64,000 bases of DNA from Clostridia bacterium. GTDB lineage: Bacteria; Bacillota; Clostridia; Oscillospirales; Acutalibacteraceae. The position numbers were made by a program, and so were the translations under genes. Numbering within the stretch: position 1 is the first letter of the stretch; every line of letters starts with the position of its first letter. Below the pieces are notes generated by a model. It had not been told where the DNA came from. It ran no database searches and worked only from the letters and a program-made list of their open reading frames with translations. The DNA is taken from assembly GCA_017621885.1 (NCBI GenBank), contig JAGASD010000035.1, positions 1-64,000 of the forward strand, given 5' to 3'. Shown one piece after another: positions 8,824 to 24,744 of this stretch.

Positions 8824-8890
8824 GGTTGCAAATTCAAGGGGCAGGTTGCAAATCGTGGTAGTGGGTTGCAAACGCATTGGGTAGGTTGCA
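8824..8890. repeat. Four-unit, 20-bp iteron-like array (copy 2)
   Basis: GGTTGCA occurs at 8824, 8844, 8864 and 8884 with an exact 20-bp period. The preamble (CTACTCCACCT, TACAAAATTGG) matches that of the array at 6916. It lies between a minus-strand stop codon and a terminator, so it is probably transcribed as 3'-UTR. Confidence 0.85.
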
Positions 8891-8923
8891 TTTTGTGTTT
8901 TTACAAAAGCGAACTTATTCAAA

Positions 8924-10006: not shown

Positions 10007-10057
10007 ATAAAAACCTCCTAATTTTTTGGTAAATATATTGTATCACAGAAAACAAAA

Positions 10058-10092
10058 AAGTACAACAGTTTTGTATTAAAACCGTTGTACTT
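10058..10092 (-). terminator. Minus-strand terminator beside the right 14-bp repeat
   Basis: A 15-bp stem with one mismatch (10058-10072 with 10078-10092) has T6 on its minus-strand 3' side. No minus-strand gene lies immediately to its right, so it may be the leftover terminator of a lost tRNA or gene. Confidence 0.7.
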
Positions 10093-10099
10093 AGGTGGT
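10086..10099. repeat. 14-bp direct repeat (right copy)
   Basis: Exact match to 7936-7949. It is followed by sequence resembling the CACT-CCA acceptor end of a tRNA read on the minus strand. Confidence 0.5.
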
Positions 10100-10224
10100 A
10101 CGAGTGTTGATAACGGATTCAATTTTTAATATCAAATAACCGACAGTCAAACACATATTCTTGCTTGTATCAGAGGATTTTGTAGTTTTTTCAACAAATC
10201 AAAAACAGATTGTGAGGAAACGAA

Positions 10225-10503
10225 ATGTCAAATATTATTGAAGATTTATACTACGGCACCCTTGAGCCACAAGAAGTTAATTCAGAATTAACACCTAAAC
10301 TCAAAAAGAAACTGGGCAACCTTGCCGAAAAAGAAGAACAGCTTACTGCAAGATTGAACGGTGAAGATAAGGAACTGTTTCAAAACTACGTAAGTGCTTA
10401 CATTGAATTTTCAACAACGAGTAACGCTGACAGCTTTATATCAGGCTTCAGGCTCGGTGCAAAATTCACATACGACACATTTGTTGAAGGCAAGAAAGGA
10501 TGA
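10225..10503 (+). CDS. DUF6809-like mobile-element protein
   Basis: A 92-residue acidic helical protein: MSNIIEDLYYGTLEPQEV at the start, and SFISGFRLGAKFTYDTF near the end. The I-I-E-D-L-Y-Y-G-x-L-x-P opening and the F-I-x-G-F-R-L-G-A block are typical of the DUF6809 family, which I recall as commonly next to TnpV in clostridial elements. Function is unknown. A GAGGAAAC ribosome site precedes it, and it is nearly contiguous with the broken tnpV that follows, supporting a shared element origin. Confidence 0.7.
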   Translation: MSNIIEDLYYGTLEPQEVNSELTPKLKKKLGNLAEKEEQLTARLNGEDKELFQNYVSAYIEFSTTSNADSFISGFRLGAKFTYDTFVEGKKG

Positions 10504-10504
10504 T

Positions 10505-10891
10505 ATGATTATGGAACTCAAAAAGCATTATACAAACGAACAGACTGGTATCAGTTACACTCTGCACGGCGATTTTTATTTGCCGGACTTAAAGGCGGCC
10601 GAAGAAAATATCACCGTCGGTAAATGGGGAATGTTACATAAAGATTATTTGCTTAAACACAAGAAAGTGTTATTTGCTACACTCCTAACCCAAGGTAAAC
10701 TATATCAGCACTGTGCTCAGGTAAAAAATCAGGCTCAGCAGATGTTTGATAATCTTGTTGAGCAAATGAAAGAAGCTGAAGGTGTTACAGAACACCTGAA
10801 AGAGGAAAATCAGATGGAATGAGTGTGCCGTGTGCAAAATATAGAGGCAAGGGCAAGAGAGATTGTCACAAACAACTTAATATGTAATTAA
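10505..10891 (+). pseudogene. tnpV: TnpV-family protein interrupted by an in-frame TGA
   Basis: The frame opens MIMELKKHYTNEQTG and follows TnpV throughout (YTLHGDFYLPDL, VGKWGMLHKDYLLKHKK, AEGVTEHLKEENQME). At 10820-10822 it meets TGA exactly where other TnpV copies have the tryptophan codon TGG of the MEWV motif. Beyond the stop the same frame continues VCRVQNIEARAREIVTNN and ends at TAA 10889-10891. One G-to-A change therefore removed the last ~22 residues. No other gene here suggests that TGA is read as tryptophan. Confidence 0.85.
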
Positions 10892-10898
10892 TTATAAC

Positions 10899-10929
10899 AA
10901 GACGGCTTGGTGGTTTTCCTTGCCGTCTT
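10899..10929 (+). terminator. Terminator after the tnpV pseudogene
   Basis: AAGACGGC (10899-10906) pairs with GCCGTCTT (10922-10929), followed by a T-rich stretch. Confidence 0.65.
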
Positions 10930-11040
10930 ATTGCTTTTTGTGGCTTTGCAAAAGTTCGTTAAAAAATTATTAAGCTAATATATTGAAAAAACTTGTCAAC
11001 TATGCTACAATATATAAAAATTTAATACTGATATAAGAAG

Positions 11041-11224
11041 ATACGGTTTGAAAAGTTGTAAGCTGAGTAGATGTAAAAGGGAATCAGGTTCGAATCCTGA
11101 ACAACCGCCATTACTGTATTTGACAAGACAGGAGCATATTAGCCATTGGGATATTCTATCCTGAGAAGGAGTGTTCCTGAAGTGGGCATATCCACTGCAT
11201 CATAAGTCAGGATACCTGCCGTGT
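11041..11224 (+). promoter_or_regulatory. Cobalamin riboswitch
   Basis: The closing P1 stem can be drawn between ATACGG (11041-11046) and CCGTGT (11219-11224). The conserved core reads AAAAGGGAATCAGGT, then AATCCTGA and CCGCCATTACTGT (11076-11117), matching the AAGGGAA...CCCGC-ACTG core of cobalamin aptamers. The 3' conserved box AGTCAGGATACCTGCC is at 11205-11220. A side hairpin AGTGG/CCACT lies between. The element is 195 bases before the first gene of a B12-type uptake operon, so corrinoid binding presumably shuts the operon off. Only a weak hairpin (GCCGC-att-GCGGC, about 11275-11287) is seen downstream, so the expression platform is unclear. Confidence 0.9.
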
Positions 11225-11418
11225 CTTTTTAGGTTCAACACAACTTTGGTGAGAAGAGTGCAACCGATTTATCGCCGCATTGCGGCTTTGGGTTTGCATT
11301 CTTTTTTGATTTTGTAGAGCCAAAGCCTTTCTTCGCTATGCCGTGTTTTAAATCTGTTGTACTCTTTTGACCTATTTGGTTGAAAGGGTATTTTTTATTT
11401 GTAAAGGAGGGTTGATAA

Positions 11419-11754
11419 GTGACACAAGATGAGAAAAAGTCCTGGGCGGAAGAACTTTTGAAAAGAAAAGCTACGGAACTCGGAAGACTGCCCAAAAAGG
11501 ATGATTTTGATGAACCGACAAGGTCACGAATCAAAGCCTTCTTAGGTCCTTGGCCAAGAGCATTGGAGGCTGCCGGATTAAAGGAAGCAAAGCCTGTTTC
11601 CGAAAAATCCAAAAAGAGAAAAAAAGCAACTATCAAATCAAAAAATCAAACCATTTCTGCGCGTCAGAAGTTGGAGAGGCACAGAACCAAAGCGAAAGAA
11701 CAGAATACTTTTGATGAAAACAAAATGAAAAATATCAAAAAGGAGATTCAATAA
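11419..11754 (+). CDS. Small HNH-associated-repeat protein
   Basis: A 111-residue, very basic protein. Residues ~15-55 match the homing-endonuclease-associated repeat (HNHR) pattern: KATELGRLPKKDDFDEP, then IKAFLGPWPRALEAAGL. This repeat is a predicted DNA-binding helical module. The rest is a Lys/Arg-rich tail; no HNH nuclease motif is present. The GTG start at 11419 is supported by AAAGGAGG 8 bases upstream, and no ATG in this frame lies near it. The stop codon overlaps the ATG of the next gene by one base, so translation is coupled. As the first gene after the cobalamin riboswitch, its presence is unexpected; a regulatory role is possible but unproven. Confidence 0.7.
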   Translation: MTQDEKKSWAEELLKRKATELGRLPKKDDFDEPTRSRIKAFLGPWPRALEAAGLKEAKPVSEKSKKRKKATIKSKNQTISARQKLERHRTKAKEQNTFDENKMKNIKKEIQ

Positions 11755-14534
11755 TGAAAAAGCGAATTTTAAGCGTTATTCTCGCTATTGCAATGCTGAT
11801 AACAGCAATACCACTTATGTCTGTTGCATCAGAAAGCGAATATGTTTATATCTCTGTAAGCTATGATGACAAATATACCGATGACAAAAACGGCAATCCC
11901 ATAGCTTATATTCCCGTATCCCTCGAAACACTTCAATCTGTTGATTTGAACGAATACAATCTTTCTGAATATCTTTATGACGAAGACGGTGACGGCAATT
12001 ATGACATTACAGCATTACAGCTTATCATCTATGCTCACGAAGAGCTTTATGGCGGTGATTGGAGCGAGGTAACTTTCACAGGTAGTCCCGGAAGTTCATA
12101 TTTCGCAGGAGGTCTTTTCGGCAGAGATGAAAACCTCAACTATTATCTGAACGGTCAGTATCCTCTTGCAAGTGGAGGATGGGGTGCAACCTCTGACCAG
12201 ATTGTTCTTGAAGCAGGCGACTTTATTGACCTTGCAGGCTTCACAAGCTGGGATTTCTATCAGGACTCGGCTTACGGTTTTCATTATTTTGCTGATGCAA
12301 ACGGTGATGTAACACATTCTTACACCACAGAAACAGCCAAAGCTTGCGACATCAAGCTTATTAAAGGCACAAAGGATTATGAATACAATTCCGTTTTCTT
12401 TGAAATACCTGATTATGAAGTACATTACGGTAAAGCACTCTATAATGAAACGGGAAGTGTAACAACAGATGACAGCGGATGTGCATCTATCTCTTTCCCA
12501 TCTGCAGGAAAATGGTATCTTTGGGTTGACGGAGGTTATGGTAACGAATATCCCGATTCTATAGTTTCTGCTCCCGGCTATGCAGAGGTAACAGTTACAT
12601 CGGCGGATGCTCCCCGTGAGCCTCAGGATGTAAGCGCTGTGCTTAATGCTACAATGGCACAGCTTGCTGATACAGTACAAGAACCTGCTTTCGGTACTGA
12701 CGCAGGTGAATGGACAGTGTTGAGTTTGGCACGCGGTGAATATTTTGAAAAGAACAGCACTTATTTTAATGATTACTACAACCGTATTGTTTCAACAGTA
12801 AATGAAACAGCTTCATCGGTTAATATGAACGGTGCACTCCACAAAAACAAATCAACTGAAAATTCCCGTCTGATTGTTGCACTTTCATCTATCGGTAAGG
12901 ATGCAACTGCTGTTGGCGATTGGAATCTTGTTGAAGCATACAGCCTGAACGGTTTTGATTGGGTTAAAAAGCAGGGTCTTAACGGTACGATATGGGCACT
13001 TATCGCGTTGGATTCGGGCAACTATGAAACAAGCGATGAAACCATCCGTCAGCAGTGTATTGATTCCATCCTCTCACTTCAGCATGATGATGGCGGTTGG
13101 GCATTACAGGCAAACAAGACTTACGCATCTGACCCTGATGTTACGGGTATGGCACTTCAGGCTTTGTATCCTTACCGTAATCAGACAGCTGTAGCTGAAG
13201 CATGTGAAAAAGCATTTGATTGCCTTTCTGAAATGCAGCACGAAAACGGTACATTTGCATCGGGCGGAAGCGAATGCTCTGAAAGCTGTGCGTGGGTAAT
13301 TGTTGCCTGCACAACATGGGGCATCAATCCTGATACCGACAGCCGTTTTGTAAAGAACGGAAAATCTGTTGTTGACGGACTCTTAAGTCATTATCTTGAA
13401 GATAAGGCGCAGTTTGAACATATTGCAGACGCAGGTGCAAACGGTATGGCTACTGACCAATCCTGCTACGCTCTTGTTGCCTACAAGCGTTTTATAAATA
13501 ACAAAACAAATCTTTTTGATATGTCTGATGTTGCATTTGATGAAAATGTTGAAATCGTTCCCGGTAAGATGACAGCAACTCTCGGTATTCCTGCTGAAAT
13601 ATCCGATGAGGTCGGCAAAACTTTCAACGCAACAATCAGCATTGACCAGTGGGATAATAACGCAGGCTACAAGCTTATTGATTTTATTATGAATGTTCCC
13701 GAAGGTCTTACAGTTACGGCAGTTACAGCCGAAAGCCGTCTTTCGGGCGGAACGGTAAATTACAACGTTGAAGAAAGCACAGGTAAGCTCCGTGCAGTTT
13801 ACTTTGACGCTAACAACCATAGCGATATCACAGTAAGCGGAACCACCTTCCCGGCACTTCTTTTCACAATTACTTTCCGTGTCGATTCCGTAACTGCAGG
13901 CGACAAGCTTGGCTTTAACATCAGCGGAATGTCCGTTAAACTCAAATCAGATTCTGCGGATGAAAACTCTATGATTATTGTTGACATTACGGATGCAAGC
14001 GGAACGGTAAATGTTGTAACAGGTGTTTCTTATAGTGCAATGTGTCTCTATGTTGGTGATAATGTTGACCTTATCCCCTCGGAGAAAATGGCCGTTGCAG
14101 TAGCAGTTGTCGGTGCAAAGGCAGGAGCAAAGCTCAGCTACAACGACGGCATCAACGGTTATGAATTCAAGTACAGCACAGAAATCTCTGATAAAACAGG
14201 TATTTCAACTTATGTTGCACTTGTTGATTCTTCAATTGATATGGCGAAGTTCGTTGATAAGCAGAATTTTGTTCTCTCTGATGACAATGCTGATGAAATC
14301 ACATTCGGTGATGCAAACGGCGACGGAGTAATCAATGCACAGGATGCTCTCGGTGCAGTTGACTCCTGGCTTCGTAAAACAGATGCACCGTCAGATGACA
14401 AGATTCTCGCCCTCAATGTGAACAGTGACAGCAGAATCAATACATTTGATGCTCTCGGTATCGTTGAAGCGTTTGTAGACGGCAGTGAATACATCGTTGT
14501 TACAAAGGTAGCAACTATTACAGCTAATAACTAA
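11754..14534 (+). CDS. Secreted multidomain protein: DUF4430-like, alpha/alpha barrel, cohesin-like, dockerin
   Basis: A 926-residue exported protein. Residues 1-26 are a signal peptide. Residues ~30-200 are beta-rich and resemble transcobalamin-like DUF4430 domains (YYLNGQYPLASGGWG, LEAGDFIDLAGFTSW), followed by a small Ig-like segment. Residues ~300-590 form a terpene-cyclase-type alpha/alpha barrel with repeats such as LNGTIWALIALDSG, SILSLQHDDGGWALQ and CLSEMQHENGTFASGG. Residues ~605-760 look like a cohesin-type beta-sandwich, and ~850-912 are a dockerin with two calcium-loop repeats (DANGDGVINAQDALGAV; NVNSDSRINTFDALGIV). Mammalian intrinsic factor and transcobalamin also join an alpha/alpha barrel to this beta domain, so corrinoid binding is a reasonable inference. 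The dockerin suggests docking to the cohesin protein encoded next. Confidence 0.82.
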   Translation: MKKRILSVILAIAMLITAIPLMSVASESEYVYISVSYDDKYTDDKNGNPIAYIPVSLETLQSVDLNEYNLSEYLYDEDGDGNYDITALQLIIYAHEELYGGDWSEVTFTGSPGSSYFAGGLFGRDENLNYYLNGQYPLASGGWGATSDQIVLEAGDFIDLAGFTSWDFYQDSAYGFHYFADANGDVTHSYTTETAKACDIKLIKGTKDYEYNSVFFEIPDYEVHYGKALYNETGSVTTDDSGCASISFPSAGKWYLWVDGGYGNEYPDSIVSAPGYAEVTVTSADAPREPQDVSAVLNATMAQLADTVQEPAFGTDAGEWTVLSLARGEYFEKNSTYFNDYYNRIVSTVNETASSVNMNGALHKNKSTENSRLIVALSSIGKDATAVGDWNLVEAYSLNGFDWVKKQGLNGTIWALIALDSGNYETSDETIRQQCIDSILSLQHDDGGWALQANKTYASDPDVTGMALQALYPYRNQTAVAEACEKAFDCLSEMQHENGTFASGGSECSESCAWVIVACTTWGINPDTDSRFVKNGKSVVDGLLSHYLEDKAQFEHIADAGANGMATDQSCYALVAYKRFINNKTNLFDMSDVAFDENVEIVPGKMTATLGIPAEISDEVGKTFNATISIDQWDNNAGYKLIDFIMNVPEGLTVTAVTAESRLSGGTVNYNVEESTGKLRAVYFDANNHSDITVSGTTFPALLFTITFRVDSVTAGDKLGFNISGMSVKLKSDSADENSMIIVDITDASGTVNVVTGVSYSAMCLYVGDNVDLIPSEKMAVAVAVVGAKAGAKLSYNDGINGYEFKYSTEISDKTGISTYVALVDSSIDMAKFVDKQNFVLSDDNADEITFGDANGDGVINAQDALGAVDSWLRKTDAPSDDKILALNVNSDSRINTFDALGIVEAFVDGSEYIVVTKVATITANN

Positions 14535-14544
14535 CTGATTATTA

Positions 14545-14571
14545 AGGGGTGGGACTGACACTCCCACCCCT
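14545..14571 (+). terminator. Strong intercistronic hairpin, no T-run
   Basis: AGGGGTGGGA (14545-14554) and TCCCACCCCT (14562-14571) form a perfect 10-bp GC-rich stem with a 7-base loop. It sits directly before the ribosome site of the cohesin gene. Without a T-run it is more likely an RNA-processing or stability element adjusting the ratio of secreted protein to downstream products. Confidence 0.6.
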
Positions 14572-14586
14572 CTTAGGAGAATGAAT

Positions 14587-15213
14587 ATGAGTAAAAGCAA
14601 ATTGGAACCGAAAACAAAAAAGAGAATAAAAATTGGTATCTCAATCGGCGTTTTACTGCTTTTGTTGATACTGATTCTCCTTTTTTCATTCTGCGGTAAA
14701 AACCCGTTCGGCAAACCTACACTTACAATAGAAACTCCGCAGAAAATCAGCCTTTCCGAAACAGATGAAATCACCCTCGACGTGACAATATCATCATTCG
14801 GTGAAGCTAAATATCCGGCTGCAAGTATGAGCATTGTATTTGACCCGTCAAGGCTTGAGTTTATAGGTATAGAAGAAGGCAATGTTTTTATCCGTAATGA
14901 CGGTGAAGAGATTGAACAAAGACTGCCGGACTGGAGCTGTAACCCGACTCAATGCAACAAAACGGGTAAAATCAACATTATGTACCTTGACACAACAGGC
15001 GGAAAGAATGCGTTTGACAAAGACTTGCTTGCAAAGGACGACAATGTTGTGCTTCGCCTGAAATTCCGTCTCAGAGGAAGTCTTCGCAAAGGCGATGTAT
15101 GTGACCTTGTTTTCGAAGATGCTGTTTTTGCGGCATCAGACGAAACACAAAGTCTGGCAATGACAACCGGTACACTTAATGTCAGAAACGGCAAAATTGT
15201 TATAGGAGATTAA
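14587..15213 (+). CDS. Membrane-anchored cohesin-domain protein
   Basis: A 208-residue protein beginning MSKSKLEPKTKKRIKIG. One N-terminal membrane helix (ISIGVLLLLLILILLFSF) anchors it with the rest outside. Residues ~45-205 are a cohesin-type beta-sandwich: ISLSETDEITLDVTISSFGE, then MSIVFDPSRLEFIGIEEG and NVVLRLKFRLRGSLRKGD are the usual strand motifs. The second ATG (14587) was chosen because AGGAG is 7 bases upstream; the first leaves only a 1-base gap. The neighbouring 926-residue protein ends in a dockerin, so this is the natural membrane receptor. Cohesin identity is by pattern only. Confidence 0.75.
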   Translation: MSKSKLEPKTKKRIKIGISIGVLLLLLILILLFSFCGKNPFGKPTLTIETPQKISLSETDEITLDVTISSFGEAKYPAASMSIVFDPSRLEFIGIEEGNVFIRNDGEEIEQRLPDWSCNPTQCNKTGKINIMYLDTTGGKNAFDKDLLAKDDNVVLRLKFRLRGSLRKGDVCDLVFEDAVFAASDETQSLAMTTGTLNVRNGKIVIGD

Positions 15214-15214
15214 A

Positions 15215-16345
15215 ATGAAAAGAATAATATGTTTAATATTAGCCATAGTGCTTCTTATGACAACTACAGCCTGCAGTGGTAATTTCACAAAGGTTAACCT
15301 TAATGAACCCATAGCTATTCCGGAAAACGGTATTGTTGAGAAAAGTGTTTTTGATAAAATAAAAAACGAGAATGCTATTGCCACTTTCACAGGTGCATCA
15401 AATGACATTAAATACGAATGGACTGTTTTCGGCAGTGACATCAATGAAACAAAGGATGTAAATTTATCCGTTGTCCTGAACAAATCAGATAAGGGCATAA
15501 AGGTTAGTTTTTCCGAAACGAAGGATTTGGGTTTTCCTGCCCTGCTTTCTATTCATATCAACGAAAAATGGTCAGCAGACAGTGCAACCGCTTTTAACGG
15601 TGACAAAGGTGTTTATTCTGTTTCTGTAACAGGAAGTAAAACAAGTATTCTGAATATATCTGTAAACAAGATTATTCCTGAAATTGAAATTTTACCCGAT
15701 GAAATAAATTATACAGAAGACACTACTGCAGAAAATACAAATCCGACAGGAAACGATTCTTCAGATACTACAACCACCAACGGGAAAGACAATTATCTTT
15801 CAGGTGTGCAGAGCTCTGATGACAGAGTTTATTCTGACGGTACGGCAACTCAAAAGGATAAGTATGACACTGACCCCGTACCCGAAGGAAAGCCTATGCC
15901 CGTTGAGCCTGAAAATCAGGAAATCAACAACAAAAAGAAATACACCTGCACCTTTTCCATTGAATGTTCAACAATCCTGAATAACCTTTCTGACCTTGAC
16001 CCTGATAAACGTCATCTGGTACCTTCAGACGGTGTTATTTTACCGCCCACTAAAGTGACTTTCTATGAAGGTGAATCAGTCTATGATGTGCTTCAGCGTG
16101 TTTGTAAGGAAAACAACATACATATGGAATCCTCATGGACTCCTGTCTATAACAGTGCCTATATCGAAGGTATAAACAATCTTTATGAATTTGACTGCGG
16201 TGAACTTTCAGGCTGGATGTACCGTGTTAACGGATGGTATCCAAATTACGGTTGCTCCCGTTATCAGCTTGCAGACGGTGAAAAAGTGGAATGGCGCTAT
16301 ACATGCGACCTCGGTAACGATATCGGTCGTGAAGGAACTTGGTAA
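15215..16345 (+). CDS. DUF4430 (transcobalamin-like) lipoprotein
   Basis: A 376-residue lipoprotein: MKRIICLILAIVLLMTTTAC places the lipobox cysteine at residue 20. Residues ~25-165 are beta-rich and unassigned; ~170-235 form a Thr/Asn/Asp/Pro-rich linker; and ~250-376 are a DUF4430 domain, the fold of the C-terminal domain of transcobalamin and intrinsic factor. Typical landmarks are YEGESVYDVLQRVCKEN, LYEFDCGELSGWMYRVNG and YQLADGEKVEWRYTCD. It is probably the membrane-surface corrinoid binder that hands ligand to the ECF transporter encoded next. One base separates it from the cohesin gene stop, and AGGAG precedes it. Confidence 0.85.
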   Translation: MKRIICLILAIVLLMTTTACSGNFTKVNLNEPIAIPENGIVEKSVFDKIKNENAIATFTGASNDIKYEWTVFGSDINETKDVNLSVVLNKSDKGIKVSFSETKDLGFPALLSIHINEKWSADSATAFNGDKGVYSVSVTGSKTSILNISVNKIIPEIEILPDEINYTEDTTAENTNPTGNDSSDTTTTNGKDNYLSGVQSSDDRVYSDGTATQKDKYDTDPVPEGKPMPVEPENQEINNKKKYTCTFSIECSTILNNLSDLDPDKRHLVPSDGVILPPTKVTFYEGESVYDVLQRVCKENNIHMESSWTPVYNSAYIEGINNLYEFDCGELSGWMYRVNGWYPNYGCSRYQLADGEKVEWRYTCDLGNDIGREGTW

Positions 16346-16350
16346 ATTTT

Positions 16351-17241
16351 ATGAGAGATTCATTTTCAGAATATCATCCTTTTATAAACTTAATATATTT
16401 TGCATTTACGATAAGCTTTTCTCTTGTGCTGACACACCCGTTGGCACAGGGGATTTCTCTCGTGTGTGCTGTTATTTATGCAGTAAGTATAAACGGGAAG
16501 AAAAGTGTGATATTTCTATTGAAATACTGCCTGCCGATGGTGCTTCTGACTGCATTTATCAACCCTGCATTCAATCACGAGGGCGCAACAACTCTGCTGT
16601 ATTTCCCGAATGGCAATCCTCTTACGCTTGAAAGTATTTTATACGGATTTTCTGCAGGTGTGATGATAATTACAACGCTGATGTGGTTTTCGTCGTTCAA
16701 CTCAGTGATGACAACGGACAAGTTTATCTATCTTTTCGGCAAGGTTATTCCTGCTTTGTCACTTGTACTGAGTATGTCTTTAAGATTTGTTCCTAAATTC
16801 AAATCGCAGATGCAGACTGTCACCGAAGCACAAAGAAGCATCGGCAGAGATGTTTCAAACGGAAGTCTGTTACAGAGAACAAAGACGGCAATTCACATAT
16901 TTTCAATTATGATAACATGGTCGCTTGAAAATGCCATCGAAACTGCGGACAGTATGAAAAGTCGAGGATACGGGTTAAAAGGCCGAACTGCTTTTTCGAT
17001 TTACCGATTTGAAGAAAGAGACAAATACACTCTTATATGGCTTTCTTTCTGTGGATTGTTTATCATTGCAGGGACTTTGCTTAACGCTTTCGGCTTCAGA
17101 TATTTCCCGGATATTCGTTATGCTGCATTTGATATGACAACAATACCTTTCTATTGTGTATATTCCGCACTTTGCATTACACCCGTGATATTAAACTTAA
17201 AGGAGGAGAGAAAATGGAAAACTTCAGTTTCAGAAATGTAA
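16351..17241 (+). CDS. ecfT: ECF transporter transmembrane coupling protein EcfT
   Basis: A 296-residue membrane protein with about six helices. The EcfT hallmark coupling helix is visible as ENAIETADSMKSRGYGLKGR (the A-R-G-type motif, here SRG), and a first, degenerate motif lies in TEAQRSIGRD. EcfT links the substrate-binding S component to the ATPases. The ATG at 16351 was preferred over an upstream TTG (16339) because it gives a normal N-terminus (MRDSFSEYHPFINLIYF) just after the previous gene ends. The last 28 bases overlap the start of the ATPase gene. Confidence 0.87.
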   Translation: MRDSFSEYHPFINLIYFAFTISFSLVLTHPLAQGISLVCAVIYAVSINGKKSVIFLLKYCLPMVLLTAFINPAFNHEGATTLLYFPNGNPLTLESILYGFSAGVMIITTLMWFSSFNSVMTTDKFIYLFGKVIPALSLVLSMSLRFVPKFKSQMQTVTEAQRSIGRDVSNGSLLQRTKTAIHIFSIMITWSLENAIETADSMKSRGYGLKGRTAFSIYRFEERDKYTLIWLSFCGLFIIAGTLLNAFGFRYFPDIRYAAFDMTTIPFYCVYSALCITPVILNLKEERKWKTSVSEM

Positions 17242-19856
17242 GCTTCGCATATCCCGAGCAGGAAAACAAAGCTCTCCGTAATATCTCCTTTGAGGTAAAT
17301 CAGGGTGAATTTCTGATTCTCTGCGGTCCGTCAGGATGCGGAAAATCAACACTTCTGCGTCACCTTAAGACCTGCCTTACACCTCACGGTGTAGTTAACG
17401 GTGAAATTCTGTTTAACGGCAAACCGCTTAATGAGGTTGACGAAAGAACACAGGCACAGGAAATCGGCTTTGTGCTTCAGTCGCCCGAAAATCAGGTTGT
17501 GACGGATAAGGTGTGGCACGAGCTTGCTTTCGGACTTGAAAGCCTTGGGCTTGATACGCCGACTATCCGACGCCGTGTGGCAGAGGTTGCAGCATTCTTC
17601 GGTATTGAAAATTGGTTCTATAAGAATGTAACCGAGCTTTCAGGCGGTCAGAAACAGCTTCTCAGCCTTGCTTCGGTTATGTGTATGAATCCGAAGATAC
17701 TTGTACTTGATGAACCGACAGCACAGCTTGACCCTATTGCCGCTTCTGATTTTCTCGCTCTTCTCGGAAAAATCAACCGTGAGCTCGGTATAACTGTTAT
17801 TCTTACCGAGCACAGACTTGAAGAAGCTTTTGCGTATGCAACAAGAGTTGTCGTAATGGAAAAGGGTGAAATCGTCTGTGATGATTCTCCCGAAAAAGTT
17901 GGACTTCATCTTCGTGATAAGGATAACGGCATGTTCCTTGCTATGCCGACAGCAATGAGAGTGTGGGCAGGTGTTGAAACAAAGCTTGACTGTCCGATTA
18001 CTGTACGTGACGGTAGTGAGTTCTTGACTGAAAGAAGCAAAGAAAAAGCACTTCTTCCCCTTGAAAGGGAAAAAGTGCATACATATACTGACGAAATAAC
18101 TCTTGAGTGTGATGAAATATGGTTCAGATACGAAAAAGACCTGCCCGATGTTATAAAAGGTTTTTCTCTCACTCTGCACAAGGGTGAATTTTATGCAATT
18201 CTCGGCGGTAACGGTGCAGGTAAAACAACTACACTCAAAGTAATTTCGGGACTTCGCAAGGCTTACAGAGGAAACGTAAAAGTGAACGGCAAGGTCGGAA
18301 TGCTGCCGCAGAATCCGCAGGCACTTTTTGTAAAAAGAACAGTGCGTGAGGATTTATATGAAGCGCTTAGTAACACAAAAAGCACAAAGAAAGAAAAGGA
18401 TGAGCAGGTTGCCCGTGTGGTTAGTCTTTGCTCGCTAACCGACTTTCTTGACCGACATCCTTATGACATTTCAGGCGGTGAACAGCAGAGAACGGCACTT
18501 GCAAAGGTTCTTCTTACCGCACCCGATATACTTCTTCTCGATGAACCGACAAAAGGCTTTGATGCAGAATTAAAAGTAACATTTGCGGATATTATCGGTA
18601 AGCTGACAAATCAGGGCGTAACCGTGCTTATGGTCAGCCATGATGTGGCCTTTTGTGCAGAATATGCACACAGATGCGGTATGTTCTTTGACGGTAATCT
18701 TGTCGCAGAAGGCACTCCCCGTGAGTTTTTCTCTGGCAACAACTTCTATACAACATCTGCAAACCGTATGGCAAGGCACCTCATTCCCGATGCGGTAACG
18801 GTTGATGAAATCATTGCCTGCTGTGGCGGAGAAATCAAGAAAAAAGAAAGTCCGGATGAAATAACACCTTTGCCTGAGCCTGCCCCGAGAAGTGTAAATT
18901 TCAAGCCTGAACCACTTAAACTATGGCGTAAAATTCTTGCTGCAGCATCAGGGCTTGTTTCATTGGCTGTGTTTTTCTATGCAACGGGAATTACCGATTT
19001 ATCAGCACTTATAAATTCTTCGGGCATAAGTGAAGCGGGTAAAAATCAATTATGGCTTTACGGTATTTTGTTTGTTGCTCTTACCGTGTTTATGATTGCA
19101 ATCGGAAGACGGAGCGAACCGCCGCTTATAGTGCAGACGCCGAAAGAAAAACGGAACTTAAGCAAGCGGACAATTGTGGCATCTGTTGCTATATTGCTCT
19201 TTATTCCTCTGACCATATTTGCAGGAATTTTCTATCTCGACAACCGACAGTATAACATTGTCGCACTGTTTGTGCTTTTAGAGTGTATGTTGCCGTTTAT
19301 TCTCGTGTTTGAGGGCAGAAAGCCTAAGGCAAGAGAGCTTGTGACAATTGCTGTGCTTTGTGCAATAGGAATAGCAGGCAGAAGTCTTTTCTTTATGCTT
19401 CCGCAGTTCAAGCCTGTTCTTGCACTCACAATAATCGCAGGTGTTGCTTTCGGCGGAGAAACGGGATTTTTGGTGGGAGCCGTTACGATGCTTCTTTCAA
19501 ATATGCTGTTCTCTCAGGGACCGTGGACACCTTGGCAGATGTTTGCGATGGGTATTATAGGTTTTCTTGCAGGAATTCTTTTCAAAAAAGGATTGCTTCG
19601 CAGAACACGGGTTTCACTTGCGGTGTTCGGTGCATTTGCCGCTGTTGTAATTTACGGCGGAATAATGAACCCTGCATCAATGCTTATGTATTCGTCACAG
19701 GCAATAACAGTTAAAGCCTTGATGGCATATTATATTTCAGGTCTTCCCATGGACTTGGTACACGGCTTCGGAACAGTTATATTCATTATGCTCGCTGCCG
19801 AACCGATGCTCGAAAAAATGGACCGTATCAAAGTAAAATACGGGTTGGTGGAGTAA
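17214..19856 (+). CDS. Fused ECF transporter EcfA-EcfA-S protein
   Basis: An 880-residue single chain that would normally be three proteins. ABC domain 1 (residues ~1-235): Walker A GPSGCGKST, signature LSGGQKQLL, Walker B ILVLDEPTAQLD. ABC domain 2 (~300-530): GGNGAGKTT, ISGGEQQRTALAK, ILLLDEPTKGFD. Residues ~580-870 form a hydrophobic S-component-like domain with helices such as LVTIAVLCAIGIAGRSLFFM and AGVAFGGETGFLVGAVTML. The start at 17214 follows an AGGAGGAGAG site. With EcfT this gives a complete dedicated (group I type) ECF transporter, with specificity provided by the fused S domain. The cobalamin riboswitch and DUF4430 neighbours argue for corrinoid uptake. Confidence 0.88.
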   Translation: MENFSFRNVSFAYPEQENKALRNISFEVNQGEFLILCGPSGCGKSTLLRHLKTCLTPHGVVNGEILFNGKPLNEVDERTQAQEIGFVLQSPENQVVTDKVWHELAFGLESLGLDTPTIRRRVAEVAAFFGIENWFYKNVTELSGGQKQLLSLASVMCMNPKILVLDEPTAQLDPIAASDFLALLGKINRELGITVILTEHRLEEAFAYATRVVVMEKGEIVCDDSPEKVGLHLRDKDNGMFLAMPTAMRVWAGVETKLDCPITVRDGSEFLTERSKEKALLPLEREKVHTYTDEITLECDEIWFRYEKDLPDVIKGFSLTLHKGEFYAILGGNGAGKTTTLKVISGLRKAYRGNVKVNGKVGMLPQNPQALFVKRTVREDLYEALSNTKSTKKEKDEQVARVVSLCSLTDFLDRHPYDISGGEQQRTALAKVLLTAPDILLLDEPTKGFDAELKVTFADIIGKLTNQGVTVLMVSHDVAFCAEYAHRCGMFFDGNLVAEGTPREFFSGNNFYTTSANRMARHLIPDAVTVDEIIACCGGEIKKKESPDEITPLPEPAPRSVNFKPEPLKLWRKILAAASGLVSLAVFFYATGITDLSALINSSGISEAGKNQLWLYGILFVALTVFMIAIGRRSEPPLIVQTPKEKRNLSKRTIVASVAILLFIPLTIFAGIFYLDNRQYNIVALFVLLECMLPFILVFEGRKPKARELVTIAVLCAIGIAGRSLFFMLPQFKPVLALTIIAGVAFGGETGFLVGAVTMLLSNMLFSQGPWTPWQMFAMGIIGFLAGILFKKGLLRRTRVSLAVFGAFAAVVIYGGIMNPASMLMYSSQAITVKALMAYYISGLPMDLVHGFGTVIFIMLAAEPMLEKMDRIKVKYGLVE

Positions 19857-19880
19857 AAGTTAACAGTACAACTTAACTGT

Positions 19881-19902
19881 GGTGTCGGTGAAAACCGACA
19901 CC
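19881..19902 (+). terminator. Terminator of the B12-type operon
   Basis: A perfect 9-bp stem, GGTGTCGGT/ACCGACACC, closed by a GAAA tetraloop and followed by a T-rich run, 24 bases after the transporter stop. Confidence 0.85.
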
Positions 19903-19926
19903 ATCTTTTCTTTTTCGAAAAAGTTC

Positions 19927-20196
19927 TTGACAAGGAAACAAATGTTCTGTACAATAATAAATTGGTAAATAATGTATTTACCCTACAACTAAATATCAAC
20001 TGAAACACATATTTTTTACTTATTGGTTTTTTACCAACACATATTATCTGACCGAATAAGTATAGTCCGATGCTCGGTCAGCAACATACGGACAATCAGA
20101 GCTTAAACTTTAAGCCGTTACATAGTTTCAGTGCAAACTGTGCGAGAGGATGAAATGTCCTCCCGCTATTTGTGCTGTCTATGTGACGGCTTTTTT
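19927..20196 (+). ncRNA. Candidate structured RNA or leader with its own promoter
   Basis: The promoter is TTGACA (19927-19932), 17 bases, TACAAT (19950-19955). The predicted transcript carries successive hairpins: GGTAAATA/TATTTACC (~19965-19983), TTGGT/ACCAA (~20023-20036) and CTGACCGA/TCGGTCAG (20048-20055 with 20074-20081). It ends in a 14-bp stem (20112-20125 with 20179-20192) followed by T6. A nested hairpin (GAGGA/TCCTC) lies in the last loop. No ORF with a ribosome site is present. It may be a regulatory RNA, an attenuator for the element genes, or part of an attachment region. Confidence 0.45.
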
Positions 20197-20421
20197 GTTT
20201 TCTAAAAAGTATTTCTGAAAATCCGGAACAATTTTATGTGGCTTATTCCCATTACCTGTAGATGCAATTTCTTTATATAATAACTGCCCCCACCAAAGCA
20301 TCTTGGTATAAAAGATACTACAGCCACCCTTACATAGCGAAGCTCGTCTGCGGTATACACCGCAACTAAAGTTTGTCGCTCCCTTGATAAGCGAGAAATT
20401 TTAGTTTATGAGCCTCGCAGA

Positions 20422-20495
20422 GCCCACTGACATCTTTGCAGACCTAATGGGCTGAAAGTGTCATAGTGGGTTACGTACTTTGAGAAAAGTGCGGA
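20422..20495. other. Putative origin of transfer (oriT) upstream of mobV
   Basis: Imperfect inverted repeats CCCACTGACATCTTT (20423-20437) and AAAGTGTCATAGTGGG (20455-20470) are followed by a short ACTTT-gaga-AAAGT hairpin, within 110 bases upstream of the relaxase start. MobV relaxases typically nick such a site close to their own gene. Another long imperfect hairpin (AACTAAA/TTTAGTT) lies just before it. The nick site is not identifiable by eye. Confidence 0.5.
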
Positions 20496-20532
20496 ACAAA
20501 TAAAGCAGTAATGCAGAAAGGAGGTAAAACCT

Positions 20533-21732
20533 ATGTCAAAGAAAAACTACAGTGTAGCAAGAGTTGTCACTCACACACAAAGCTCAATCGGTAAATGTGA
20601 AAGGCACAACGAGAGAAAAAATGAGTCTTACGCAAATATGAATGTTGATATGGCTCGGTGTGATATGAATGTGCATTTCAAAGGTTGCGGTGAACTGACC
20701 TACAACGAACAACTGAATAAGCTCATAGCCGAAAAGAAGGTCTGTATGCGTGGTCTGAAAGCTGATGCAAAGGTCTTTGATGAAATGATATTCGATGTCA
20801 ATACAGACTACTTTGAAACACACGGCGGTTATGAATATGCAAAAGAATTCTACGAAGAAGCCTACAGATTTGCAGTTGCCCTCTACGGTGAACAGAATAT
20901 CATCTCTGCAGTTATGCACGCTGATGAACTGAACGTTGCTCTAACAGAACAATACGGGAAACCTGTGTATCACTATCATATGCACCTTGTTGCTCTGCCC
21001 GTTGTTGAGAAACAGATTCTGTGGACAAAGCGATGCAAGGATAAGTCACTTGTGGGTACTGTTAAAGAAACCGTCAATCAGATAAGCCATTCAAAAAAGT
21101 GGAAGTCACCTCAGGCGGTAGATGAAAACGGTAATCCCATATTCAACGAAAAAGGTAAGCCTGTGCTGATTCCCTCATACAGTATCTTGCAGGATGATTT
21201 CTTCAATCATATGCAAAGAGCCGGTTTCAATGATTTCTTCCGTGGTGAAAAAGGCAGTACGGCTGAGCATCTGTCTTGTTTGCAGTATGAGATTCAGCAA
21301 GATAAGAAACGTCTTGAGGAAATCAAGGGACGATTACAGACGGAAGAAGTCAGATACGATGAACTTCAGACCGTGCATAAAACATTCCTTGAGATTGACA
21401 GTATGGGCAAGAAAACGCTTACGGGCAAGGTCACAATTTCAAGTGAAGATTTCAATGACCTGAGTAATATGGCAAAGCAGTCTGTTGCGGCAAGAAGTAA
21501 GATTTATGACCTTGAGGGAGAAAATGAACGACTCCGAAAAAGGAATTGGGAATTGCAAAGCCATATAAACCGACTGAGCAATAGGCTTTATGAACTTGAA
21601 CAAGTCTGTGCACCGTATCTTGAGGCATTAAGGCTGATGCCTGAAAAAGTAAAAGCATTTATCTCGGATGTGCTTAAAACCGTCCGAAAAGAAAAAACCA
21701 ACAAAAATATAGAAATCAAAAAAGAGAGGTAA
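20533..21732 (+). CDS. mobV: MobV-family relaxase (plasmid recombination/mobilization protein)
   Basis: A 399-residue Pre/Mob-type relaxase. The N-terminus (NYSVARVVTHTQSSIGKCER, followed by HNER) is motif I of the family. The metal-binding motif III is HADELNVAL followed by YHYHMHLVALP, the H-x-D-E...H-x-H arrangement that positions the nicking site. The C-terminal ~170 residues are a charged coiled coil (QYEIQQDKKRLEEIKGRLQT; SHINRLSNRLYELEQ). It nicks oriT and pilots single-stranded DNA to a helper's secretion channel. AAAGGAGG precedes the ATG, and the parB-like gene starts four bases after its stop. Confidence 0.88.
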   Translation: MSKKNYSVARVVTHTQSSIGKCERHNERKNESYANMNVDMARCDMNVHFKGCGELTYNEQLNKLIAEKKVCMRGLKADAKVFDEMIFDVNTDYFETHGGYEYAKEFYEEAYRFAVALYGEQNIISAVMHADELNVALTEQYGKPVYHYHMHLVALPVVEKQILWTKRCKDKSLVGTVKETVNQISHSKKWKSPQAVDENGNPIFNEKGKPVLIPSYSILQDDFFNHMQRAGFNDFFRGEKGSTAEHLSCLQYEIQQDKKRLEEIKGRLQTEEVRYDELQTVHKTFLEIDSMGKKTLTGKVTISSEDFNDLSNMAKQSVAARSKIYDLEGENERLRKRNWELQSHINRLSNRLYELEQVCAPYLEALRLMPEKVKAFISDVLKTVRKEKTNKNIEIKKER

Positions 21733-21736
21733 TTAA

Positions 21737-22654
21737 ATGAATATTGAAGATAATTTTATTAACACCCTGTTTGATAAAACAGAAGAAACAGAGGCGACAA
21801 AGCCTCAAATAACCGAAATCGTAAATATGCCTGTAGGCAAAATTGTTCCGAATTTTAAGAATCCGTACAAGTGCCGTGAGGAAGATATGAAGCCGTTGGA
21901 GGAAAGTATCCGTGAAAATGGTATCATTCAGCCTCTGATGGTGCGAAAGGATGATAAAGCTGATGTGTTTGAAATCGTTTCAGGCCACAGAAGATACCTT
22001 GCAGCGACTAGGCTTGAAATGGCAGAGGTGCCCGTTGTTGTGTTGGACATAAGCAAAGAGGAAGCAGACATTATCCTTGTTGACAGCAATCTGCATCGAG
22101 AGCACATCTTACCAAGTGAAAAAGCCTTTGCTTACAAGATGAAAATGGATGCTCTGAAGAAGCAAGGTAAACGCACGGATTTAACTTCGGACCAAGTCGG
22201 ACCGAAGTTATCGGCAGATGAAATTTCTGACACCGACAGCGCTTCTCAGGTTAAGAGATATATTCGTCTTACCAACCTTATTCCAAGGCTTCTTTCAATG
22301 GTAGATAGCGGTAAAATTGCATTCGGTCCTGCTGTTGAGCTTTCGTATCTCAGCCAAGGTCATCAGAACTTTATTGCCGAGGTTATTGAGAAAGAGATAT
22401 GCACACCGTCACTTGCTCAGGCACAGAAATTGAAAAAGCTGGAACAAGAGGGAACTCTTGATGTGGGTACAATTCTTTGTATGATGAAGCAGCCTAAACC
22501 CAATCAGGTGCAGATGGTAAAAATTCCCGAGGAGAGCATAAACAAATATGTAAAATCCAATGCAACAGTAAAGGAAAAAGAGGATTTTCTTGCAAAGGCT
22601 GTTGAGTATTACGGAAAAGCTCTTATGCGAAAGAAAGACAGAGGTGCGAGATAA
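21737..22654 (+). CDS. ParB/RepB/Spo0J-family partition protein
   Basis: A 305-residue protein. Residues ~30-125 form the ParB N-terminal domain with REEDMKPLEESIRENGIIQP, the CTP/nucleotide-pocket motif SGHRRYLAA, and the NLHREHILPSEKAFAYKM block. A helix-turn-helix region follows (DSASQVKRYIRLTNLIPRLL). No parA is nearby. In mobilizable elements such orphan ParB proteins may aid maintenance or regulate transfer genes. The stop overlaps the start of the next small gene by one base (ATAATGA). Confidence 0.85.
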   Translation: MNIEDNFINTLFDKTEETEATKPQITEIVNMPVGKIVPNFKNPYKCREEDMKPLEESIRENGIIQPLMVRKDDKADVFEIVSGHRRYLAATRLEMAEVPVVVLDISKEEADIILVDSNLHREHILPSEKAFAYKMKMDALKKQGKRTDLTSDQVGPKLSADEISDTDSASQVKRYIRLTNLIPRLLSMVDSGKIAFGPAVELSYLSQGHQNFIAEVIEKEICTPSLAQAQKLKKLEQEGTLDVGTILCMMKQPKPNQVQMVKIPEESINKYVKSNATVKEKEDFLAKAVEYYGKALMRKKDRGAR

Positions 22655-22887
22655 TGAAGAAAATAAATGATTTTTGCGGATTTATCGGTGAGGAAGAATA
22701 TGTAATCGGCGGTGTGCTTTACAAGGTATCTTCCACGTTTGCACCTGCCAATATCTGTAACCTTGAAAACACATTGGAAGAAAAAGTGCAAAAATATGTC
22801 GGCAGTGATTTTGCACATTTGACATTGGTGCCTGATGCAGATAAAATTGAAGCAGAATATGTGACGACTGCCGGAAAGGAGGACTAA
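22654..22887 (+). CDS. Small element-encoded protein, unknown function
   Basis: A 77-residue protein beginning MKKINDFCGFIGEEEYVIGG. No family is recognised. Its start overlaps the parB-like stop and its own stop overlaps the recombinase start (TAATG), so the three are translationally coupled. The position just before a large serine recombinase is where excision factors or small regulators are often encoded, but nothing in the sequence proves this. Confidence 0.75.
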   Translation: MKKINDFCGFIGEEEYVIGGVLYKVSSTFAPANICNLENTLEEKVQKYVGSDFAHLTLVPDADKIEAEYVTTAGKED

Positions 22888-24566
22888 TGCAGTCAAACAA
22901 TTTAGGAATCACAGCTCTTTACTGTCGTCTTTCCCGTGATGACGGAAGCGATAAGGAGAGCAACTCAATCGAAAATCAGAAGCTGATGCTTGCCCGTTAT
23001 GCTAAGGAAAAAGGCTTTGAGAACACAAGGTTTTATGTGGATGACGGTTTTACAGGTACGAATTTCAATCGTCCAGATTTCAAGCGAATGATGGAGGATG
23101 TTGAAGCAGGATATATCTCAACCATTATCGTAAAGGATATGTCACGATTCGGAAGAAATTATGTTGAAGTCGGTCTTTACACCGAATCATACTTTCCCGA
23201 AAACAATATCCGCTTTATTGCCATAACTGACCTTGTTGACAGTGCTGACGGTGAAAATGAAATCATTCCGTTCAAAAATGTTATGAACGAGATGTATGCA
23301 AGAGATATTTCAAAGAAGGTACGCTCTGCCAAACGAATCAGAGGTAATATGGGTGAACCATTATCTCAACCGCCATACGGATATATGAAAGACCCTCAGA
23401 ATCCTAAAAGGTGGATTATTGAACACGAGGCGGCAAGTGTTGTAAGAGAAATATTCAGGCTTTATCTTGAAGGCTACGGTCAGGACAAAATTGCAAGAAC
23501 CCTGCAGGACAGAGGTGTTAAGAATTGCACCTCATATTGGCAGGAGCGAGGCATAGGTAGAGGTGGTAAAAAGATACAGCCTAATCCGTACAAATGGAAA
23601 AGCTCTACCATAGGTCAGATTCTCATCCGTCAGGAATATTGTGGCGATGTAGTAAACTTCAAAACCTACTCCAAGAGCTTCAAGAACAAGAAACGACTTC
23701 AGAATCCCGAGGAAAATTGGAAAATCTTCAAGGATGTACACGAGCCTATTATTGACCGTGAAACCTTTGAAGCTGTACAAGCTCTTATCAAAAAATGCAA
23801 ACGCAGAGACCCCAAGCCTGAAAACGGTGATAAGAATATCTTTTGTGATTTTCTCGTCTGTGCCGAATGTGGGCATAAGCTATGGTATCATGTGAATACA
23901 CGCAACAAGGACATTCACTATTTCAGCTGCAGTAATTATGTAAAGGATTACAGAGGAAGCTGTCAGCACAGACATTATGTGAGAGCAGATGCCATTGAGC
24001 AGATTGTTATGCTTGAGCTTAAAAAGATGTCAGCTTGTATAAGGCATAACGAGGAACGCTTTGCTGAAATTCTCGCACGAAAAACCAACAGCGACAAAAT
24101 CTCCGAGGAGAAATATCTCAAAGCCGAGCTCGAAAGACTTATTAGCAGAAATGCAAAGGTTGAGAGAAATTATGAGAAGCTGTACGAGGATAATATGGAC
24201 GGCAAGGTAACTGACGAGTGGTTTATGCATATGTCAAGAAAGTACGAAGAGGAGAGAATTGAGTTAAGGGCAAGGATTACAAAGCTCAGGGAACAGCAGG
24301 AGCAGCTTAACAACAAAGAAAAGGAAAAAGAGCTTTTCGTTTCTGCGGTTCGCAAGTTTATGGAAATGGAAACCTTAACGGCACCACTACTTCACGAGCT
24401 TATTGACCACATTGACATTTATGAAACCGAAGGTACAGGCAAAAACAGAACACAACGTATTGTAATTCATTACCGCTTTGTGGGATATATTGAAATTCCG
24501 TCAAATGCAGATAATTACAAAGCAGATACCCGTCAGGGCGTAGCAGTGGAATATCTCACTGCATAA
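22887..24566 (+). CDS. Large serine site-specific recombinase
   Basis: A 559-residue TnpX-type recombinase. The catalytic N-terminal domain has the nucleophile serine in YCRLSRDDGSDKESNSIENQ, then FYVDDGFTGTNFNRPDF and VKDMSRFGRNY with the conserved arginines. The recombinase domain follows (PYGYMKDPQNPKRWIIEHEA). Next is a zinc ribbon (CAECGHKLWY with later CSNY and CQH), a coiled-coil region (residues ~390-490) and a DUF4368-like C-terminus. It should integrate and excise the element. AAGGAGG lies upstream, overlapping the end of the previous gene. Confidence 0.9.
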   Translation: MQSNNLGITALYCRLSRDDGSDKESNSIENQKLMLARYAKEKGFENTRFYVDDGFTGTNFNRPDFKRMMEDVEAGYISTIIVKDMSRFGRNYVEVGLYTESYFPENNIRFIAITDLVDSADGENEIIPFKNVMNEMYARDISKKVRSAKRIRGNMGEPLSQPPYGYMKDPQNPKRWIIEHEAASVVREIFRLYLEGYGQDKIARTLQDRGVKNCTSYWQERGIGRGGKKIQPNPYKWKSSTIGQILIRQEYCGDVVNFKTYSKSFKNKKRLQNPEENWKIFKDVHEPIIDRETFEAVQALIKKCKRRDPKPENGDKNIFCDFLVCAECGHKLWYHVNTRNKDIHYFSCSNYVKDYRGSCQHRHYVRADAIEQIVMLELKKMSACIRHNEERFAEILARKTNSDKISEEKYLKAELERLISRNAKVERNYEKLYEDNMDGKVTDEWFMHMSRKYEEERIELRARITKLREQQEQLNNKEKEKELFVSAVRKFMEMETLTAPLLHELIDHIDIYETEGTGKNRTQRIVIHYRFVGYIEIPSNADNYKADTRQGVAVEYLTA

Positions 24567-24668: not shown

Positions 24669-24744
24669 TGGTCGGAGTGAAGGGATTTGAACCCCCGACA
24701 TCCTGCTCCCAAAGCAGGCGCGCTACCAACTGCGCTACACCCCG
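24669..24744 (-). tRNA. tRNA-Pro (TGG)
   Basis: A complete cloverleaf on the minus strand: acceptor CGGGGTG/CACTCCG, D-arm GCGCAGTTGGTAGCGC, anticodon stem CCTGC/GCAGG around TTTGGGA (anticodon TGG), T-arm GGGGG-TTCAAAT-CCC, discriminator A and an encoded CCA end. Confidence 0.95.

Follow-up and report, generated by a model that had tools for sequence, protein, structure and literature searches.

In intrinsic factor, transcobalamin and haptocorrin an alpha/alpha barrel is paired with a beta domain, and the order of domains in intrinsic factor and transcobalamin is toroid, then DUF4430. Energy-coupling factor (ECF) transporters of vitamin B12, such as the CbrT-like ones, combine an S component with EcfT and two EcfA ATPases, and an ECF transporter that has its own energising module is placed in group I in the usual scheme. 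Many gut Firmicutes require B12 that they do not make and, to our knowledge, capture of the vitamin at the Gram-positive cell surface is poorly described. Here we analyse a 64 000-nucleotide stretch (the window; positions 1-64000 of contig C23) from the 2.63 Mb, 64-contig genome assembly of a gut Clostridia bacterium. It carries, behind a cobalamin riboswitch, six closely packed + strand genes, closed by an intrinsic terminator, which encode in this order an HNH_repeat protein, a secreted toroid/cohesin-like/dockerin protein of 926 amino acids, a membrane-anchored cohesin, a DUF4430 lipoprotein, EcfT and an EcfA-EcfA-S fusion.

Comparison with described systems gives partial likenesses. The C-terminus of TCN proteins has been described as a DUF4430 domain (PMC4350170); ten loci in the family of the host carry toroid-then-DUF4430 in one chain, whereas in the window the toroid and DUF4430 are on two proteins. 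With ECF-type B12 transporters the operon shares the S component, EcfT, two EcfA and the cobalamin riboswitch; it adds surface capture proteins, the joining of EcfA-EcfA-S in one chain and an energising module of its own. With cellulosomes it shares a dockerin of two F-hand repeats and a Pfam Cohesin domain on a membrane-anchored protein; here, however, a vitamin is the presumed ligand, cohesin and dockerin appear to serve as an anchor, and Pfam found no glycoside hydrolase or carbohydrate-binding module among the operon proteins. Non-cellulosomal cohesins and dockerins have been reported on putative adhesins of syntrophic sulfate reducers (PMC10553843); those were proposed for adhesion and the window's would serve nutrient capture, both outside cellulose breakdown. 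No system of this composition was described in the titles or abstract beginnings of the open-licence papers searched.

The explanation that we favour, and regard as fairly probable, is a B12-regulated corrinoid scavenging operon in which a toroid/DUF4430 clamp is anchored by cohesin and dockerin and serves ECF import. At low cobalamin an antiterminator would form and the operon would be transcribed, whereas bound cobalamin would lead to termination before the first gene. The toroid protein and the DUF4430 lipoprotein would make up a two-part corrinoid clamp, like the alpha and beta domains of intrinsic factor. The former would be held at the surface by its C-terminal dockerin, plugged into the operon's membrane-anchored cohesin, a device that would replace the membrane or sortase-type anchor of many relatives. 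From the lipoprotein the corrinoid would pass to the S component of EcfT/EcfA-EcfA-S, the dedicated importer, and the operon would move between genera as a neighbour of relaxase and recombinase genes in a tRNA island. Corrinoid binding, cohesin-dockerin pairing, hand-over to the S component and cobalamin as the ECF substrate are what we infer from these parts. The system thus appears to combine an ECF importer of a vitamin with capture proteins of the toroid and DUF4430 kinds, and a cohesin-dockerin pair appears to have taken over as their surface anchor. A broader proposal, offered tentatively and with slightly less than even confidence, is that B12 traps on the intrinsic-factor principle are widespread in Clostridia and that one branch acquired a private cohesin-dockerin anchor, with a releasable or exchangeable catcher, and spreads between genera as mobile cargo.

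Predicted riboswitch control and a widespread core

An earlier reading of this DNA from its letters alone (the original prediction) had proposed a cobalamin aptamer followed by six tightly packed genes that end at a terminator. The aptamer is borne out by the covariance model, with a score (Table 1) above the gathering score of 31.5 bits for RF00174 and a start slightly ahead of the proposed 11041. The gene packing and the terminator were recovered as well, and Pfam agrees with the identities given to the cohesin, the DUF4430 lipoprotein, EcfT and the EcfA-EcfA-S protein, the last with two ABC ATPases and an ECF S domain in one chain. In the leader, the segments AAGAGTGCAAC (11254-11264) and GTTGTACTCTT (11356-11366) are able to pair, and the second overlaps the 5' arm of a terminator hairpin at about 11359-11391, directly after which come the ribosome-binding site and GTG start of the HNH_repeat gene. 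All eight aligned leaders, that of the window among them, keep the candidate antiterminator arms and the terminator; L022 has a single substitution in the first antiterminator arm and L021 one in the 3' arm of the terminator (L, G and C denote our locus, genome and contig labels). The predicted anatomy is that of a transcription-terminating OFF switch, for which cobalamin binding and control are predicted.

Relatives were found by searching genome contigs with the cohesin protein, which gave eight loci from deer, cattle, sheep and goat gut assemblies. The order HNH_repeat, toroid/dockerin, cohesin, DUF4430, EcfT is kept in seven of them (L021 stops just past EcfT at a contig edge), the eighth, L023, being a 4.6-kb contig that starts near the cohesin. 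All seven relatives whose contig spans the leader possess the riboswitch, and riboswitch and gene order are both kept in seven of the eight.

The arrangement without cohesin is much wider. A toroid profile matched in 80 of 300 family genomes. With a broader profile, at E 1e-10, matches extended through the class, to 126 of its 391 genomes and 89 of its 223 genera sampled; part of these loci were examined, and the linkage described below names a testable capture machine in many genera. Sixty stretches around family toroid matches were mapped with hidden Markov models (HMMs) built in this analysis and, with L062 excluded as a duplicate of L018, 59 loci were retained, many of them on cut contigs. 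On the strand of the toroid gene, DUF4430 was found in 55, EcfT in 39 and an S domain in 33, while cohesin occurred in only one (L066). Toroid and DUF4430 share one chain in 28 of the 59 loci, with the toroid first in 10 and DUF4430 first in 18. In L099, L101, L103, L104, L106, L107 and L114 a toroid-then-DUF4430 chain stands with EcfT and a separate same-strand DUF4430 gene was not seen; because the two parts are fused in these seven loci, the toroid protein and the DUF4430 lipoprotein, which are separate in the window, are suggested to act together. If such chains are true homologues, the intrinsic-factor architecture would exist in bacteria too. Among 30 class-level stretches (about 1.5 kb on each side), DUF4430 was found in 23, the window itself being one of the other seven; some class-level matches could be other toroid proteins.

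A cobalamin riboswitch was detected at E 0.001 in 58 of the 79 other toroid-matched genomes, 54 of them over the gathering score. It lies on the same strand at most 10 kb upstream of 50 of the 93 toroid places (48 of 80 genomes; median distance 1.4 kb), the riboswitch match being below the gathering score in three of these pairs. The number expected at random is about 0.2, and chance neighbourhood was rejected on this basis; a riboswitch on the opposite strand within 10 kb was found for none of the places and one downstream for a single place. The B12-regulated surface capture and import put forward in the original prediction is thus supported by context, i.e. by the repeated linkage of riboswitch, DUF4430, toroid and ECF genes across the family and of toroid with DUF4430 across the class, and DUF4430, a family of unknown function, gains a likely role. 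The wide core without cohesin and the probable mobile-element setting (see below) were both absent from that prediction.

The genome contains a MetH-domain frame that is truncated at a contig end; CbiC was not detected in this genome, which is 94% complete. This is consistent with a need for imported B12, and the host is probably unable to make the vitamin.

Proposed anchor, capture proteins and importer

The C-termini of 66 toroid frames were compared, leaving out the near-duplicates L018, L019, L020, L025 and L062. A hydropathy test found a terminal hydrophobic segment in 41 of them, of which 5 have an LPXTG-like match and several more show PKTGE-like strings by eye; six end in a dockerin according to our HMM. 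Because a membrane-type segment stands at this place in 41 of the 66 frames, the dockerin occupies the position of an anchor, and in the window's branch its socket is likely the neighbouring cohesin. The latter protein has a basic N-terminus and one transmembrane segment followed by the Pfam Cohesin domain (35.9 bits, cut-off 24.1; matched by 7/7 aligned copies, window included), and its outward orientation was assigned by reading the sequence. The dockerin of the window scored 22.4 of the required 22.9 bits for PF00404 in the whole protein and exceeded the cut-off in the genome scan (Table 1).

The dockerin segments INAQDAL, WLRKT and RINTFDAL, together with two cohesin segments, are kept in L066. 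When 23 dockerin pieces of the host genome were compared with the window dockerin, the best full-length identity was 38% and the median 28% (one 16-residue fragment reached 56%). Since the recognition segments are invariant as far as L066 and the dockerin is unlike the others of the genome, we infer a private cohesin-dockerin pair, whose pairing is predicted. Ratios of non-synonymous to synonymous substitution rates (dN/dS) between the window and L018 were 0.09 for the dockerin and 0.14 for the cohesin, which indicates purifying selection on both between genera; those of the toroid, the DUF4430 domain and the cohesin-like domain were 0.11, 0.07 and 0.35. The cellulosome-style docking first proposed for this locus is best retained in the form of a dockerin at an anchor position with a suggested dedicated partner, and a role of cohesin and dockerin as a plain surface anchor outside cellulose breakdown is suggested. 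Dockerins occur also on toroid or DUF4430 proteins of other genera: Pfam adds terminal dockerins in L069, L082 and a small frame of L084, and confirms that of L083 and that of the DUF4430 protein in L109. Their distribution indicates repeated recruitment.

The DUF4430 domain of the window lipoprotein lies well over its Pfam cut-off (66.7 against 23.8 bits). In the wider check, all 48 C-terminal-type domains (window included) were matched at E 0.001 and 33 of 36 N-terminal-type domains at E 0.01. A crude lipobox pattern matched 9 of 39 proteins with C-terminal DUF4430; since their starts are untrimmed and the T-T-A-C of the window does not fit it, this pattern is unsuitable and the lipoprotein assignment relies on Cys20, which is invariant in 9/9 aligned sequences. 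EcfT probably begins with the ATG at 16351. For the EcfA-EcfA-S fusion the likely start is the ATG at 17214, after AAAGGAGG, which gives 880 rather than 900 amino acids. Both of its ATPases have complete Walker A, signature and Walker B motifs; EcfT, two complete ATPases and an S component are all present, i.e. the transporter has its own energising module.

The genome holds a second operon with a cobalamin riboswitch (riboswitch at G000:C23:149650; L026:4651-5875), which encodes a 154-amino acid DUF4430 lipoprotein and a 177-amino acid S-like membrane protein. The latter received no family name from Pfam or NCBIfam and is related to the window S domain by BLAST (E 3e-7, 21% over 155 residues), which serves as an independent test because our S-component HMM was seeded with both S proteins of the genome. 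The two lipoproteins, of 376 and 154 amino acids, align weakly to each other. In total, cobalamin riboswitches and DUF4430 matches number two each in the genome, and downstream of either riboswitch lie a DUF4430 gene and a gene for an ECF S domain or S-like protein.

As to the 926-amino acid protein, the original prediction had listed a DUF4430-like beta region, an alpha/alpha barrel, a cohesin-like domain and a dockerin. The toroid, a relative of Prenyltrans and SQHop_cyclase domains, and the dockerin stand. In the window the toroid is below the Pfam cut-off (Prenyltrans, 23.0 of 26.5 bits), and among 57 aligned toroid domains (window included) PF00432 matches 45 and PF13243 matches 46 at E 0.01. 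A DUF4430-type domain is present at the N-terminal position in L021, L022 and L066 (Pfam 2.6e-5 in L066), and was not confirmed in the window copy. The internal cohesin-like domain is weakly supported, one of six aligned copies matching Pfam Cohesin. Nothing useful emerged from PDB when the queries were the lipoprotein and DUF4430 sets, the cohesin or the cohesin-like domain. Very large relatives of the toroid protein, of about 1600-2600 amino acids and ending in a hydrophobic or sortase-type segment, occur in L065, L068, L072 and L081.

Evidence against and alternative readings

Several results weigh against the proposed capture-and-import system. EcfT was not detected in 20 of the 59 family loci and DUF4430 in four, and 43 of the 93 toroid places had no detected upstream riboswitch, a number that includes contig ends and was obtained with strict search filters. 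Nineteen of the 66 toroid frames lack both anchor and dockerin by our crude tests, ten of these being chains that end in DUF4430. In comparison with the distant orthologue L066 the dockerin (58% identity) is not the most conserved part, DUF4430 being at 61%, and the cohesin reaches only 40%; the toroid is at 51%, the linker at 36%, the cohesin-like domain at 31% and the N-terminus at 25%. Cross-docking with other cohesins and dockerins of the genome is possible. The best named matches of the S domain are broad riboflavin- and folate-type ECF families (PF07155 over its cut-off, NCBIfam under), and no Pfam or NCBIfam model names it a cobalamin S component. The assignment of the window's N-terminal region to DUF4430 was dropped, as it has no Pfam DUF4430 match and a probability of 1.8% against the N-terminal DUF4430 set.

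The kinship to intrinsic factor that had been proposed is supported in part: DUF4430 and the toroid fold class remain, and PF01122 was over its cut-off in none of 80 genomes (seven had matches under the cut-off, one of the seven places lying inside a toroid match). Weak PF01122 matches were found for only 2 of 57 and 4 of 34 aligned toroid domains. By sequence the toroid is nearest to squalene-hopene cyclases and TED domains (PDB, two profiles), with no intrinsic-factor chain among the PDB matches of the two profiles. Membership of the intrinsic-factor sequence family is not claimed; the system may work like intrinsic factor, yet it fails this sequence test.

The best surviving alternative, which we still consider unlikely, is that the dockerin directs its protein to a cellulosome-like scaffold at another place on the cell and that the operon's cohesin serves other dockerins, the two being neighbours through shared regulation only. 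Besides those of the operon, 30 dockerin and two cohesin matches are present in the genome, and toroid dockerins in L069, L082, L083 and L084, as well as the DUF4430-dockerin protein of L109, are found with no cohesin by HMM within the fetched stretch. The lower conservation of the cohesin than of the dockerin points the same way. However, a dockerin-bearing toroid protein accompanies the cohesin in seven of the eight cohesin-found loci (the eighth cut off) and in the distant L066, and the dissimilarity of the dockerin from the others compared, with recognition segments invariant to L066, argues for an operon-internal pair.

It is unlikely too, and ranks next, that the cargo is a precursor or analogue (cobinamide, a lower-ligand base, cobalt) or another vitamin, with the riboswitch merely reporting cobalamin sufficiency. 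Cobalamin riboswitches also control cobalt importers, as reported for cbiMNQO of Clostridioides difficile (PMC11477304), and the S domain matches noted above would suit another vitamin. Two large surface proteins, however, would hardly be needed for a small solute, a MetH-type frame is present and, because CbiC was not found, the host is unlikely to require cobalt for making B12 de novo.

In a third alternative, which we doubt slightly more, the internal cohesin-like domain takes the dockerin of a second copy, which would yield polymers at the surface, or binds some other protein with a dockerin; the toroid protein would then be an adaptor scaffoldin. An HMM seeded with the window copy calls this domain in seven orthologues and L066, and Pfam Cohesin is matched by the whole L066 protein at 0.0012 and by one isolated copy of six at 5e-5; but the window copy has no PF00963 match, and the domain evolves fast, as its identity to L066 and its dN/dS (given above) indicate. 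Profile comparison of this domain with the separate cohesin gave a weak relation (probability 3.4%, E 0.013). That the toroid protein acts as an enzyme or traps proteases rather than being a binder is very improbable. Among proteins of solved structure, squalene-hopene cyclases and TED proteins are its best sequence relatives, but it is linked to DUF4430, ECF genes and cobalamin riboswitches in many loci, and the frequency of its fusion to DUF4430 also counts against this.

On another contig, L027:5795-15452 (G000:C64), three consecutive genes encode secreted proteins with repeats, and in two of these Pfam places a cohesin match close to the N-terminus. They are a possible scaffold for some of the genome's dockerins, and inspection found nothing that ties them to the B12 operon.

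A probable mobile island and remaining features

A 16.5-kb island at 8176-24668 carries the B12 operon together with EamA, TnpV, DUF6809, Mob_Pre relaxase, ParB and large serine recombinase genes (Table 1). DUF6809 and TnpV genes flank the operon on the left, whereas the relaxase, ParB and recombinase genes extend on the right up to tRNA-Pro; relaxase and recombinase thus adjoin the cargo as in an integrative mobilizable element. Five same-genus relatives were sampled for an empty site. L151 and L152 have the site nearly empty, with 24 and 30 bp separating the left flank (window positions about 7875-8175) from tRNA-Pro, against about 16.5 kb in the window; L150 is partial and rearranged, L149 ends at a contig edge and L153 has no left-flank match. 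A repeat search did not resolve an attachment core.

The window and L018, which corresponds to a contig of genome G177 from another genus, are 94.5% identical in DNA over 11003-19862, and the match halts at both ends. In other relatives it starts at 11001 (L021, L024, L025), 11017 (L022), 10932 (L019) and 10601, within the TnpV gene (L020), the L020 match continuing to the end of its own contig. A serine-recombinase fragment (Zn_ribbon_recom, 7.6e-11) lies just 3' of the L018 operon, and no toroid match was found in the three sampled genomes of the window's genus (G057, G175, G251). Near-identical copies with unrelated flanks in another genus therefore imply movement between genera, and the operon probably sits in a mobile element.

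The B12 system of Bacteroides is a Gram-negative outer-membrane system. Conjugative transposons have been reported to carry its transport loci (Frye et al. 2021, cited in PMC11005914). Both are cases of gut bacteria whose mobile DNA includes genes for B12 uptake; in Bacteroides the carrier is a conjugative transposon, whereas in the window a Clostridia ECF system lies beside relaxase and serine-recombinase genes. In Gram-positive gut bacteria, too, mobile DNA is suggested to be a vehicle of B12 capture, as in Bacteroides.

Table 1. Positions of features in the window and the basis of each assignment
Feature	Coordinates	Strand	Basis
Promoter-like site TTGAAA-17-TACAAT, just 5' of aptamer	10983..11011	+	10/12 consensus matches; pattern match only
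Cobalamin riboswitch aptamer (RF00174)	11027..11237	+	78.4 bits, E 1.3e-17, full-length model
Expression platform: candidate antiterminator arms, terminator hairpin and T run, then ribosome-binding site	11254..11391	+	complementarity, fold, terminator scan
HNH_repeat (PF18780) small protein, 111 amino acids, first gene, GTG start	11419..11754	+	Pfam 5.9e-12
Secreted toroid/cohesin-like/dockerin protein, 926 amino acids	11754..14534	+	domain map; signal peptide from sequence reading
N-terminal region, no family assigned	11829..12611	+	domain map; DUF4430-type domain at same place in L021, L022, L066
Alpha/alpha toroid domain	12612..13541	+	Prenyltrans / SQHop_cyclase relatives
Divergent cohesin-like domain	13563..14024	+	HMM seeded with window copy; weak
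Linker/X module preceding dockerin	14025..14297	+	conserved among orthologues
Type I dockerin, two F-hand repeats	14298..14492	+	29.5 bits; PDB 4dh2_B dockerin E 0.0079; recognition segments conserved
Membrane-anchored cohesin, 210 amino acids	14581..15213	+	PF00963 1e-8
DUF4430 lipoprotein, 376 amino acids	15215..16345	+	PF14478 2.5e-18; alignment
EcfT transmembrane energy-coupling protein, ATG start	16351..17241	+	PF02361 1.4e-7
EcfA-EcfA-S fusion, 880 amino acids	17214..19856	+	PF00005 4.4e-60, PF07155 3e-10, TIGR04520
Intrinsic terminator of the operon	19879..19904	+	11-pair stem, then T-rich tail
Mob_Pre relaxase	20533..21732	+	PF01076 2.5e-38
ParB-like protein	21737..22654	+	PF02195 2.2e-17
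Large serine recombinase	22887..24566	+	PF07508, PF00239, PF14287, PF13408
tRNA-Pro (TGG), right edge of island	24669..24744	-	ARAGORN

A second TnpV gene at 253-690, near the left contig end, is a sign of further mobile DNA. The first-gene HNH_repeat protein has no nuclease domain and is retained in 8/8 aligned operons (window included); among the 60 mapped family loci its gene is found on the same strand in 14, the duplicate L062 being one of them. By reading, an inverted repeat, GGGGTGGGA...TCCCACCCC at 14545-14573, separates the toroid/dockerin and cohesin genes and is perhaps an RNA processing or ratio-setting hairpin.

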